DNA of 37,785 nucleotides from the NCBI GenBank assembly GCA_003171215.1, contig PMYN01000137.1, forward strand, positions 96,028 through 133,812, in the 5' to 3' direction. Under the pieces are notes generated by a model, which saw nothing but the letters and a program-made list of their open reading frames with translations, was not told where the DNA came from and did no database searches. A program made the position numbers and the translations under genes. Of the stretch, positions 24,673-29,255 are shown piece after piece. Position 1 is the first letter of the stretch, and each line of letters begins with the position of its first letter. This DNA is from Gemmatimonadota bacterium. Its GTDB lineage: Bacteria; Gemmatimonadota; Gemmatimonadetes; Gemmatimonadales; Gemmatimonadaceae.

Positions 24673-27543
24673 ATGCGCCACCAATTGTACCGCCTTCCGG
24701 CCGGGAAACTCGCCATCACGATGGCGCTGCTGCTGGCCGCCTTCGTGCCCGTGACAATCAGCGCCCAGGTCACGTCGCCGAAGGAGTTCTTCGGCCACAA
24801 TATCGGCGATGACTACTGGCTTCCGAACTACACCCAGTTCCTGGCGTACTGGCAGAAGATCGCGCGACAGTCGCCCCGGGCGCACCTCGACACGATCGGC
24901 TTGAGCGCCGAGGGACGGCCGCAGCTCAGCATGGTGGTCTCCAGCCCCGAGAACATCAGGAATCTCGCGCACTACAAGGACATCGCGAAGAAGCTCGCGT
25001 ACGCGGAGATCAGCGACGCCGAGGCCCACGCGCTCGCCAAGGAAGGGAAGTCGGTGATGTGGATCGACGGCGGGCTCCACGCCAGCGAAGTGCTCGGCGC
25101 GAACCAGCTCATCGAGACGAACTACCAGTTCCTCTCGATGAACGACGAGGAGACGCTCCGGATCCTGAAGGACGTCATCATCGTCTTCGTGCACGCGAAT
25201 CCGGACGGCATGGAGCTCATCGCGAACTGGTACAACGCGGAGCCCGATCCCAAGAAGAAGAACATGAATGTCCCGCGCCTGTACCAGAAGTACATCGGGC
25301 ACGACGACAATCGCGACTTCTACATGTCGAACCAGGACGAGACGACGAACATGAACAAGCGGATGTACCTCGAATGGTACCCGCAGATCGTCTACAACCA
25401 TCACCAGACGGGACCCGCGGGCGCCGTGATGTTCGCGCCGCCCTTCCGCGATCCGGCGAACTATTTCTTCCATCCGGCGATGATCACCGGACTCGACATG
25501 GTCGGCGCCGCGATCAAGAACCGCATGGTGCTCGAGAACAAGCCCGGCGTAGTGGACCGCTCGCTCTCCTCGTACTCCACCTGGTGGAACGGTGGACTCC
25601 GCACCGAGGCGTATTTCCACAACATGATCGGCATCCTCACGGAATCGATCGGCAACCCGACGCCGATGACGATTCCGTTCGTTCCCGAGCGGCTGCTTCG
25701 CTTCGCCGACGAGGTGCTCCCGCTCCAGCCGTTTCAGGAGTGGCACTTCAGGCAGTCGATCGACTACTCGGTGACGGCGAACCGCGCGCTCCTCGACCTG
25801 CTCTCGAAGTATCGTGAAACCTTCCTGTGGAACACCTACAAGATGGGCCGCGATGAGATCCGGTGGGGCAGCGAGGACAACTGGATCGTCACGCCGCACG
25901 TGCTCGCCTACGTCGAGGCGAAGGCCGCGGCGGCCGGCGGCGGACGCGGCGGACGCGGCGGCGGTGCGCCGGCAGGCGCACCGGGCGACCTGAATCCGGA
26001 CATCGCCGCGCAGTTCGGCGGCGGCAGCGCACCCGCCGCGCTCTACGCGGAGTTCAGGAAGCCCGAGATGCGCATGCCGCGCGGCTACATCATCCCGGCG
26101 AACCAGCCCGACTTCCTCACGGCCGAGAAGTTCCTCGTGGCGCTGCAGAAGGTAGGCCTCATCGTGCATCGCGCCAGCGCGCCATTCACGGTGAATGGCA
26201 AGAGCTATCCGGCAGGTTCATATGTGGTGAAGTCGGCGCAGGCGTTCCGTCCGGACGTGCTCGACATGTTCGAACCGCAGGACCATCCGAACGACTTCAA
26301 GTATCCGGGCGCGCCGCCGACCCGTCCGTACGACAACGCGGGGTGGACGCTCGCCTTGCAGATGGGCGTGAAGTTCGACCGCGTGCTCGAAGCGTTCGAC
26401 GGACCGTTCGTGAAGCTCGACCCCCTCAAGGATCGCATCAAGCCGTCTCCGACCACCGTCGCGACGACGGGCGCGGGTTGGACGCTCTCGCCGAAGGTGA
26501 ACGATTCGTACCACGCGCTGAGCCGTCTGTGGGCGGCGGGCGCCGATGTCTACCGTTTGCAGCATTCCGCGACGATCGGTGGCAAGTCGTATCCCGCCGG
26601 CACGATGTACGTGCCTCGGAACGCGAAGAGTACGTCCGTTGCGCAGAAGTCCGCTGCGGACATCGGCGTGGAATTCGAGCCGTCCGGCGATCTCGCCTCG
26701 TCCGGTGAAAAACTGCCGCCGCTTCGCATCGGGCTGTGGGATCGCTTCGGCGGCTCGATGCCGAGCGGGCAGATGCGCTGGCTGATGGAGCAGTACGAGC
26801 TGCCGTTCCGCGTGGTGTATCCGCAGGAACTCGATGCCGGCAATCTTCGCTCGAAGTTCGACGTGCTGATCTTCCCCGAGAGCTCGATTCCGGGAACGGG
26901 CGTCGGGCGCGGCGGTCGTGGCGGCGGAGGTGGCGGCCGCGGCGGCGCGCAAGACACGACCGCGATTCCCGCGGAGTTCCGCTCGTGGATCGGCAACGTG
27001 TCGGTGGATCGCACGCTCCCGAAGCTGAAGGAGTTCCTGCAGCAGGGCGGCCGTATCGTCGCGATCGGACCGTCGTCGATCAACATCGCGCAGCAGCTGG
27101 GGCTGCCGGTCAGCAATCACCTCGTCGAGCGCACGCCGACGGGAACGGCGGGCTCGCCGCTTCCCGCCGAGAAGTACTACGTGCCCGGCTCGCTGCTCGA
27201 AGTGGCGTACGACACCACGCTCGACGCGACGCGCGGGCAGGACTCGCACGGCATCGTGTTCTTCGACAACAGCCCGGTGATGCGGCTCGGGCCGGATGCC
27301 GAGCTGAAGGGCGTGAAGCCGGTGGCGTGGTTCGAGAACGCCACGCCGCTGCGCAGCGGGTGGGCGTGGGGGCAGAACTACCTCGACGGCGGGGTGGTGA
27401 TGGCGGAGGCCAAGTACGGTCAGGGGACCGTGTACCTCTTTGGTCCGGAGATCACCTTCCGGGCGCAGCCGGCGGCGACGTTCAAGCTGCTGTTCAATGC
27501 GATTGTGGGGGGGAGCAAGGTGGACAATCGCATCGTGCCGTAA
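24673..27543 (+). CDS. Large secreted M14-family zinc carboxypeptidase-like protein
   Basis: A 956-residue exported metallopeptidase. The signal peptide is about residues 1-32 (LAITMALLLAAFVPVTISAQ). Zinc ligands are His136 and Glu139 (DGGLHASEV) and one of His243/His244 (YNHHQTG); the catalytic Glu is likely Glu324 (GILTESIGNP). NPDGME (176-181) is another M14-type motif. The C-terminal half is not catalytic and includes two Gly/Arg-rich linkers (about 420-438 and 747-762). They separate beta-rich segments and a glutamine-amidotransferase-like region (FDVLIFPESS, GGRIVAIGPSS). This long architecture is seen in secreted M14 proteins of soil bacteria. It would trim peptides or act on cell-wall peptides. 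GGAG lies about 9 bases before the ATG. Confidence 0.9.
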   Translation: MRHQLYRLPAGKLAITMALLLAAFVPVTISAQVTSPKEFFGHNIGDDYWLPNYTQFLAYWQKIARQSPRAHLDTIGLSAEGRPQLSMVVSSPENIRNLAHYKDIAKKLAYAEISDAEAHALAKEGKSVMWIDGGLHASEVLGANQLIETNYQFLSMNDEETLRILKDVIIVFVHANPDGMELIANWYNAEPDPKKKNMNVPRLYQKYIGHDDNRDFYMSNQDETTNMNKRMYLEWYPQIVYNHHQTGPAGAVMFAPPFRDPANYFFHPAMITGLDMVGAAIKNRMVLENKPGVVDRSLSSYSTWWNGGLRTEAYFHNMIGILTESIGNPTPMTIPFVPERLLRFADEVLPLQPFQEWHFRQSIDYSVTANRALLDLLSKYRETFLWNTYKMGRDEIRWGSEDNWIVTPHVLAYVEAKAAAAGGGRGGRGGGAPAGAPGDLNPDIAAQFGGGSAPAALYAEFRKPEMRMPRGYIIPANQPDFLTAEKFLVALQKVGLIVHRASAPFTVNGKSYPAGSYVVKSAQAFRPDVLDMFEPQDHPNDFKYPGAPPTRPYDNAGWTLALQMGVKFDRVLEAFDGPFVKLDPLKDRIKPSPTTVATTGAGWTLSPKVNDSYHALSRLWAAGADVYRLQHSATIGGKSYPAGTMYVPRNAKSTSVAQKSAADIGVEFEPSGDLASSGEKLPPLRIGLWDRFGGSMPSGQMRWLMEQYELPFRVVYPQELDAGNLRSKFDVLIFPESSIPGTGVGRGGRGGGGGGRGGAQDTTAIPAEFRSWIGNVSVDRTLPKLKEFLQQGGRIVAIGPSSINIAQQLGLPVSNHLVERTPTGTAGSPLPAEKYYVPGSLLEVAYDTTLDATRGQDSHGIVFFDNSPVMRLGPDAELKGVKPVAWFENATPLRSGWAWGQNYLDGGVVMAEAKYGQGTVYLFGPEITFRAQPAATFKLLFNAIVGGSKVDNRIVP

Positions 27544-27571
27544 GACAGCACGCGCACTGCAGACTTAGGAA

Positions 27572-27707
27572 CGAGTTAGCCCGTTTCTGGTTGGTTGGTT
27601 AACAGAAGTAAGAAATTAGCCCTGGCATCGAGCGCGATCGCGCGGCTCACTGCCAGGGCTAATTCTTGCACTTCAGTTAACCAACCAACCAGAAACGGGT
27701 TGACTCG
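27572..27707. repeat. Large nested inverted repeat between convergent genes
   Basis: The outer arms are a perfect 24-base inverted repeat (27580-27603 with 27676-27699), extendable to 32 bases with two mismatches (27572 and 27707 ends). Inside it lies a perfect 14-base inverted repeat (27614-27627 with 27651-27664). Between the two levels 11-12 bases also pair imperfectly. The apex holds the palindrome GCGCGATCGCGC (27632-27643). The whole 136 bases would form one long hairpin. It fills the gap between the M14 stop and the ligase stop. A bidirectional terminator or a small palindromic mobile element are the main options. Confidence 0.9.
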
Positions 27708-27710
27708 CGG

Positions 27711-29255
27711 TTAGATCTTCGCGCCTGTCGAAGCCCAGTACGGCGCACGCAGCTCCCGCTTGAGCGTCTTCCCCGCCGCACTCCGCGGAAACTCCGCCAT
27801 CACCAGCACCTCGCACAGCTGCTGGTACCGCGCCGCCACCCGCGAATTCGCCCACGAGCGCAACTCCTCGGCGCTGACCGAGAACCCTTCGCGGAGTATC
27901 ACCGCTCCGACCGGCGCCTCACCCCACTTGTCGTGCGGCACCCCGAATACCGCCACCTCGCGCACCGCCGGATGCTGCACGAGCACTTCCTCGATGTCCT
28001 TCGGATAGACGTTCACGCCGCCGGAGATGATCAGGTCCTTCTTCCGGTCCACGAGGTGCAGGAATCCGTCGTCGTCCGCGTACCCGAGATCGCCCGTGTG
28101 CAGCCAGCCGTTCACGATCGCCTGAGCGGTGAGATCGGGCCGGCCGTGATATCCCGGCATGAGCATGGGCCCTCGTCCAACGATCTCGCCCACCTCGCCC
28201 GCAGGGAGGTCGCGCCCGTTCTCGCCGACGATGCGCATTTCGTTCATGTACGTCGGGCAGCCGACGGAATCGAGCTTGCGATCGTAATCTTCGCGGTCGA
28301 GGATCGTGATGAACCCCTCGGTCAGTCCGTACAGCTCGTAGAGTGAACCGCGCGCGACGGCGCGCAGCCGCTCCTTGTGCTCGCGGTGCAGCGGCGCGCC
28401 GACGGAGCAGAGCATTTCGATCGAGGAGAGCGCTTCCTTCGTGCACGACGGTTCGTCGAGGATCGCCGCGATCTGCGACGGCACCGTCATGATGTGCGTG
28501 ACGCGCTCCCTCCTGATGGTCTCGATGAATGCGGCCGCGTCGAATTTCTTCATCAGCACGTACTTCGTGCCAAGGAAGAACGCCGGGAAGAACGTCACCA
28601 GCGCGCCGTTGAAGATCAGCGAGCCGGCGTGCATCACCACGCTCTCGGGGCGCATGCGAAACGCCGCCACGAACGTGGTGCAGTACGCCGCGCGGATCGC
28701 GTGCGTATGGACGATTCCCTTGGGCAACCCCGTGGTGCCGCTGCTGTAAATGATGTTGTAGACGTCATCGCCGTCGATGTCCGCGGTGGGCGCGTCGTCG
28801 CTCGCGCCGGAGGTCAGCTCCGAATAGCTGGCGTATCCCGCCTGGTTCGAGGCCTCCGCTCCGGCGGTGAGGATCCACCGGCTCGCGGGAATTCCCGGCA
28901 GCTGTGCCCGCGCCTCCTCGAGCACGGGCACCAGCTCCGCCGTGGACACCACCGCCGCCGCGCCGGCATCGCGCAAGAGCGAGAACAGTCCGCTGCCCCG
29001 AAGCAGCGGACTCAACGGCACGACTATGATGCCGGTCTTCGCCGCCGCCCAATAGAGCTCGATGAGCTCGAGGCAGTTCGGGACCACGAGCGCGACCGCG
29101 TCGCCTTTGCGCAGTCCCAGAGAGAGAAGCGCGTTGGCGGAGCGGTTCACTCGCAGTGAGAACTCCCGCCAGGTGAACCGCTGGCCCTCGAACACGACGC
29201 CCTCGTGATCCGGGCGATAGCGCGCGTGGTGCCCGACGATAGTGCCGAGGTGCAT
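27711..29255 (-). CDS. AMP-dependent acyl/aryl-CoA ligase
   Basis: A 514-residue adenylate-forming enzyme that activates a carboxylic acid to its CoA thioester through an acyl-AMP. Motifs in order are YSSGTTGLPKG at 170-180 (phosphate loop), YELYGLTEG at 306-314, TGDLGY at 387-392, the hinge DRKKDLIISGG at 403-413, and catalytic Lys496 (SAAGKTLKREL). Length and motifs fit medium/long-chain fatty-acid or aryl-CoA ligases; the chain cannot be set from sequence. The ATG lies 2 bases after the stop of the alpha/beta hydrolase gene, so the two form an operon diverging from the lacI-type regulator. Confidence 0.94.
   Translation of the reverse strand: MHLGTIVGHHARYRPDHEGVVFEGQRFTWREFSLRVNRSANALLSLGLRKGDAVALVVPNCLELIELYWAAAKTGIIVVPLSPLLRGSGLFSLLRDAGAAAVVSTAELVPVLEEARAQLPGIPASRWILTAGAEASNQAGYASYSELTSGASDDAPTADIDGDDVYNIIYSSGTTGLPKGIVHTHAIRAAYCTTFVAAFRMRPESVVMHAGSLIFNGALVTFFPAFFLGTKYVLMKKFDAAAFIETIRRERVTHIMTVPSQIAAILDEPSCTKEALSSIEMLCSVGAPLHREHKERLRAVARGSLYELYGLTEGFITILDREDYDRKLDSVGCPTYMNEMRIVGENGRDLPAGEVGEIVGRGPMLMPGYHGRPDLTAQAIVNGWLHTGDLGYADDDGFLHLVDRKKDLIISGGVNVYPKDIEEVLVQHPAVREVAVFGVPHDKWGEAPVGAVILREGFSVSAEELRSWANSRVAARYQQLCEVLVMAEFPRSAAGKTLKRELRAPYWASTGAKI

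Follow-up and report, generated by a model that had tools for sequence, protein, structure and literature searches.

Long nested palindromes in conserved gene-end slots of Gemmatimonadaceae genomes: candidate bidirectional terminators with exchanged sequences

The DNA analysed here is a 37,785-nucleotide stretch (hereafter the window) of a Gemmatimonadota genome of the family Gemmatimonadaceae (assembly GCA_003171215.1, contig PMYN01000137.1, positions 96,028 to 133,812). It contains a long nested palindrome between two convergent genes. We conclude that this palindrome is probably a bidirectional terminator, one member of a lineage-specific, dispersed family that occupies fixed slots at gene ends and whose members are repeatedly overwritten by palindromes of the same genome. 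The comparisons described below establish the family itself, its position bias, the conservation of its slots, the turnover of sequence within them and the joint change of the two arms.

A nested palindrome between convergent genes

The palindrome covers 136 bases (27572-27707), and was delimited by inverted-repeat search, folding and family search. A sequence-only reading had described it as a nested inverted repeat with a perfect 24-base outer arm, a perfect 14-base inner arm and a 12-base palindromic cap, and all of these parts were found where that reading placed them. The two outer arms are each 38 nt long (27572-27609 and 27670-27707, + strand) and 92% complementary, with the perfect 24-base match at 27580-27603 and 27676-27699. 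The inner arms match perfectly over 14 bases (27614-27627 and 27651-27664) and at their full extent span 20 nt with 90% complementarity (27614-27633 and 27645-27664). They form a GC-rich hairpin (27614-27664) that is the probable terminator stem for both strands, with the cap, GCGCGATCGCGC, at 27632-27643. A T-rich stretch lies 3′ of the inner stem on each strand, as judged from the sequence and from the T profile of the family: TAATTCTTGCACTTC for transcripts of the + strand gene (27660-27674) and TAATTTCTTACTTC for those of the - strand gene (27605-27618). The sequence-only reading had noted that U tracts are lacking on either side; this is correct outside the 136 bases, but not inside them, where the T-rich stretches follow the inner stem on both strands. 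These tails are weak in the window copy, for which a scan for canonical terminators reported none.

The element folds far more stably than its composition would predict. DNA folding of positions 27560-27720 gave -63.6 kcal/mol, compared with -19.4 +/- 3.2 for shuffled sequences (z -13.7; 0 of 200 shuffles as good), and RNA folding of 27572-27707 gave z-scores of -16.5 for the + strand and -14.8 for the - strand. Folded alone as RNA, the inner hairpin reaches about -38 kcal/mol on either strand. The GC content at the palindrome is about 53%, as against 65-70% in its surroundings. An Rfam search of the window returned no match at gathering score, and we therefore rejected identity with a known structured RNA.

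The flanking genes face each other, as had been claimed. Upstream is a Peptidase_M14 (zinc carboxypeptidase) gene (24673-27543, + strand; identified by gene call, domain and orthologues), the 3′ end of which constitutes the slot; on the other side is a gene for an AMP-binding enzyme (27711-29255, - strand; gene call and domain). The peptidase stop codon is separated from the palindrome by 28 bases, and the palindrome from the stop codon of the AMP-binding enzyme gene by 3 bases.

A dispersed family restricted to one lineage

The sequence-only reading had proposed a search for further copies of the arms, and this search recovered at least 15 copies in the same genome, G000 (22 matches counting both strands). 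Among 17 further genomes of the genus, three (G002, G010 and G014) also carry the family, which we call F1; it was found in none of 43 genomes that represent different genera of the same family and order. Matches to a pattern derived from the arms were confined to metagenome-assembled genomes (MAGs) of Gemmatimonadota when 84,980 species genomes were searched. A covariance model of F1, built from 14 copies and applied to 150 candidates per genome, gave at least 45 matches in G000, 52 in G002, 24 in G010 and 93 in G014, with sites usually matched on both strands, and a single marginal match in each of G008 and G011. Copy numbers of F1 are lower bounds; 81 copies were excised for study.

F1 elements are approximately 80-160 bp long, begin and end with CGAGT...ACTCG (consensus termini AACnGCGAGTnAAC...GTTnACTCGCnGTT), and have an outer arm, usually combined with an inner core (AATTnGCCCTGGC...GCCAGGGCnAATT). 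Arms and cores act in part as separate modules: some copies keep the outer arms and have no GC-rich core. Compensatory change that kept the pairing was seen at 17 of the 39 consensus pairs in the covariance alignment. Every genome with F1 is a draft assembly, and several are MAGs; the agreement of slots between independent assemblies makes an artefact of assembly unlikely. A peptidase tree, most of which was unresolved, is not proof that the carrying genomes form a single clade. Searches of phages and plasmids found no F1 copies, and we rejected a phage or plasmid origin on these grounds. In one place in G014 (C25), a pair of F1 palindromes flanks a single gene (L135:7736-7885 and L135:8823-8956, about 940 bp apart). 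The literature searched contained no account of elements of this kind from Gemmatimonadota.

F1 elements sit at gene 3′ ends and resemble two-way terminators

Genes were called with a simple codon-usage caller, and both neighbours were called for 77 F1 copies. Convergent contexts accounted for 41 of these, tandem contexts for 33 and divergent contexts for only 3, where random intergenic placement would give approximately 4.5, 52.4 and 20.0, respectively. The nearest stop codon was at most 20 bp away in 68 of 74 copies (median 5), and between tandem genes the element sits tight against the stop codon of the upstream gene. Across 98 tails of the family, the T-rich tail that follows the inner stem on both strands has a mean of 4.7 T in 8. 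Judged by its sequence, a stem with such tails is built like an intrinsic terminator for both directions, set within longer arms. F1 shares with bidirectional intrinsic (Rho-independent) terminators a site between convergent genes or just after a stop codon, a GC-rich stem, and flanks that are A-rich on the 5′ side and, as a family average, T-rich on the 3′ side; a GC-rich stem-loop directly past stop codons, by which intrinsic terminators are recognised, is present in F1. A survey found stem-loops clustered at the 3′ ends of genes in every bacterium that it covered (PMC1590033). Unlike intrinsic terminators, however, F1 elements are 3-5 times longer, are nested in outer arms, form a multicopy family and are swapped between slots. 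For some copies the terminator reading comes solely from position, because those copies have no GC-rich core.

We compared the same peptidase slot across relatives. In eight genomes of the genus that do not carry F1 in strength (G001, G003, G004, G005, G006, G008, G009 and G012), an ordinary GC-rich stem-loop lies about 15-45 bp past the peptidase orthologue. In G014 the peptidase is followed, 29 bp past its stop codon, by an F1 palindrome with different arms, and the next gene is not the same. No palindrome was found downstream of the orthologue in G002, and the element is therefore not essential there. We conclude from these comparisons that the slot belongs to the 3′ end of the gene rather than to the gene pair. 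The sequence-only reading had offered three options for the palindrome, namely a bidirectional terminator, a MITE-like element, and a double-stranded RNA or processing signal. Stop-codon position, convergent bias, the T-tailed GC-rich stem and the hairpins of relatives suggest that the first of these is the best supported.

The third option would have a stable 3′-end structure, cut by RNase III or protecting the transcript from exonucleases, in place of a terminator, although the two could coexist. A read-through transcript of either strand would fold into a very long, near-continuous stem, and the location at gene 3′ ends is as such a role would require. The stems nonetheless show no strand-specific pairing preference: copies between tandem genes contain 54 G-U and 44 A-C oppositions, which is not a clear difference. 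We accordingly rejected RNA-level selection expressed as an excess of G-U over A-C, and regard a double-stranded RNA structure in place of a terminator as improbable.

Slots are shared between species while the palindromes in them differ

Comparison of flanking sequences identified approximately 22 shared slots, each common to two to four genomes. Within them, the palindromes often bear little resemblance to each other. Between G000 and G010, one slot (C124 and C73) has flanks that are 96% and 96% identical and palindromes that are 48% identical; in a second (C158 and C37) the values are 88% and 96% for the flanks and 60% for the palindromes, and in a third (C31 and C106) they are 83% and 94%, and 59%. 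Palindrome identity is 97% in one shared slot. Copies in orthologous slots are hardly more alike than random pairs drawn across the same two genomes (0.63 versus 0.60 for G000-G014, 0.56 versus 0.55 for G010-G014, and 0.69 versus 0.62 for G002-G014), save for the closest pair, G000-G010, in which orthologues average 0.71 (range 0.48 to 0.97) and random pairs 0.56. Conversely, the nearest relative of a copy lies in its own genome for 59 of 81 copies, compared with a mean of 26 and a maximum of 42 when genome labels were shuffled.

The arms fall into dialects that follow the genome. Most copies in G000, including that of the window, are of type A (GTTTCTTGTTGGTTGG); nearly all in G014 are of B types (GTTAACCACTAACTGTTGGTCGG and a variant); half of those in G010 are of type C (AATCGGTCGTTGGTCGTTGG); and G002 has B and A. 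Ascertainment may account for part of this pattern, as the initial search of G000 used an A-type element from that genome. Locating orthologous sites by their flanks alone gave the same picture. The left and right arms carry the same dialect in 71 of 81 copies. A few copies are chimeras, in which an A arm stands opposite a B arm; one such element (L186:2001-2112 in G000:C46) is 97% conserved in its orthologue (L173:1400-1511 in G010:C222). The sequence-only reading had raised gene conversion between arms, and this suggestion was a good one: the arms change jointly, and copies resemble those of the same genome more than their orthologues.

Flank-based location also revealed other fates of a slot. 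The L174 and L185 slots hold a different palindrome type in each lineage, and the L178 and L183 slots have apparent deletions in G010, with remnants of the ends left. Empty sites in relatives, which the sequence-only reading had suggested looking for, are represented by the L182 slot, which is occupied in G000, whereas G002 and G014 have a compact site with no element; no target-site duplication is visible there by inspection.

Other palindrome families and swaps between families

A de novo census of palindromes in approximately 400 kb from each of G000, G014 and G006 showed that F1 is not alone. The G000 and G014 samples contain many long nested palindromes, up to 430 bp, in at least nine sequence families, and in many of them quasi-repetitive arms enclose a GC-rich hairpin. 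By contrast, hairpins of 39-72 bp are all that the sample from G006, a member of the same genus, contains. Among convergent intergenic regions of at least 100 bp, a long palindrome is present in 15 of 17 in G014, 6 of 11 in G000 and 1 of 6 in G006. When the genus was searched, two of these families were restricted to genomes that carry F1: F2 to G000, G010 and G014, and F3 to G000, G010, G014 and G002. One F3 palindrome (G000:C95:87263-87506, L191) has its interior inverted in the G010:C126 orthologue (L250), with flanks that are 94% identical.

Some slots hold members of different families in different species. In one, G000 and G010 have F2 where G002 has F1, with flanks 87% and 92% identical; in another, F2 in G000 corresponds to F1 in G002 and to a plain GC-rich hairpin in G006; in a third, F3 in G000 corresponds to F1 in G002. 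The slots with F2 or F3 in G000 and F1 in G002 are at G000:C127:105376-105540 (L200; L149 in G002), G000:C95:70117-70298 (L190; L159) and G000:C95:133859-134126 (L193; L156). Another slot with a palindrome in G000 holds in G006 a GC-rich hairpin with A and T tracts. An SbcD-like gene was found in all 18 genomes, palindrome-bearing or not, with nearly all scores below the curated cut-off, and we rejected loss of SbcCD as the cause of palindrome persistence.

Comparison with mobile elements and known repeats

These swaps bear on the possibility that F1 is a non-autonomous mobile palindrome, similar to a MITE or REPIN, which some enzyme targets to terminators and for which any function is absent or secondary. 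A dispersed, multicopy family with subfamilies would be expected of such an element, as would precise swaps that leave the flanks intact even across families, and a slot such as L182, with an element in G000 but none in G002 or G014. However, the Y1_Tnp domain is absent from the four carrying genomes, no target-site duplication is visible at the empty site, phages and plasmids are without copies, and many slots are common to several species, which is hard to achieve by independent insertion. The MITE-like option of the sequence-only reading is thus borne out as regards copy number and subfamilies, but not as regards the slots, which are mostly common to species, a Y1/RAYT transposase or target-site duplication, neither of which was seen, or the near-confinement to gene 3′ ends, and we consider a mobile palindrome of this kind unlikely.

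REP, BIME and REPIN sequences resemble F1 in that they, too, are palindromes scattered outside genes, with copies that are alike within a genome (PMC3116915, PMC3733652). Known REPs, however, are 20-40 bp palindromes with a GTAG or CGTC tag and are associated with RAYT transposases, whereas F1 is 80-160 bp, has ends of the form CGAGT...ACTCG and has no Y1_Tnp, such that F1 does not qualify as a REP or REPIN. A search for RAYT (Y1_Tnp, PF01797) found none in G000, G002, G010 or G014, and a RAYT/Y1 transposase was rejected as the mover. The terminators of Neisseriaceae that contain DNA uptake sequences (DUS) are, like F1, repeated inverted pairs with species dialects (PMC3630211); unlike DUS, F1 has tens of copies rather than many hundreds, long arms, and no short genome-wide motif. 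A search for over-represented 12-mers found none in 396 kb of G000 and, in 400 kb of G014, only a 12-mer of the arm (17 counts per strand). With no short motif strongly over-represented in either sample, identity with an uptake sequence (DUS or USS) was rejected. Integron attC sites were rejected by inspection, since the bases just beyond the ends of F1 are not complementary, as R boxes (RYYYAAC...GTTRRRY) would be, and belong to the flanking genes; F1 copies are also dispersed, unlike the cassette arrays of integrons. F1 is similar to the intergenic stem-loop families of a systematic survey of 40 genomes, which are likewise repeated and have no assigned function (PMC2267715). Taken together, these comparisons suggest that F1 functions like a bidirectional intrinsic terminator, with DUS-like dialects and REP-like dispersal, and yet is distinct from both.

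A model for the turnover of slot occupants

From these patterns we infer termination, selection on termination, and a copying mechanism. The inner GC-rich hairpin with its T-rich tails would stop RNA polymerase arriving from either converging gene, and this inner stop signal would be nested within the long outer arms. Selection for defined transcript ends would keep the slot without selecting the particular palindrome, which could then be overwritten, repeatedly, by copies spreading in that genome. The joint change of the arms would follow from copying of the entire unit, or from correction of one arm on the template of the other. In other systems, template switching has been documented to create and repair perfect stems and to invert spacers (PMC8794818, PMC8604942). 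Within a family, copying could take the form of conversion by way of blocks that the copies have in common, as suggested by the existence of A/B chimeras. Swaps between unrelated families cannot be explained in this way. A more tentative proposal, which we put forward as possible but doubtful, is that hairpin DNA homes to terminators and that slot occupants are swapped even across unrelated families; terminators would then be replaceable cassettes at fixed gene-end slots, with a sequence set by the genome and not by the gene.

Alternatively, spacer palindromes that have no function might be enlarged and perfected by replication slippage and template switching in hairpins. The quasi-repetitive arms and inverted interiors would be natural products of such events, as would perfect stems, which template switching is known to make and mend (PMC8794818), but a mutational by-product leaves unexplained the bias to 3′ ends, the shared slots and the presence of one arm sequence at dozens of loci. 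We regard this as very improbable, and favour terminators with exchangeable occupants.

Terminators are usually viewed as evolving in place; here, the site is kept and whole hairpins, in some cases unrelated ones, replace each other in species that are still up to 96% identical in the adjacent genes. This makes it possible to test by what means bacterial chromosomes retain and perfect long palindromes, and how compensatory changes arise simultaneously along a whole stem. The families also offer a natural collection of 80-430 bp palindromes whose host genomes retain an SbcD-like gene.

Two further observations come from the census. Runs of N at G000:C83:56005-56078 and 96182-96258 were scored as perfect palindromes, and were excluded as artefacts. 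Families F3 and F5 include giant nested palindromes, which at 320-430 bp greatly exceed the element of the window in length and have purine-rich, quasi-repetitive arms, at L201:879-1308 (G000:C127:120879-121308), L218:78-424 (G014:C13:220078-220424) and L195:2742-3063 (G000:C127).
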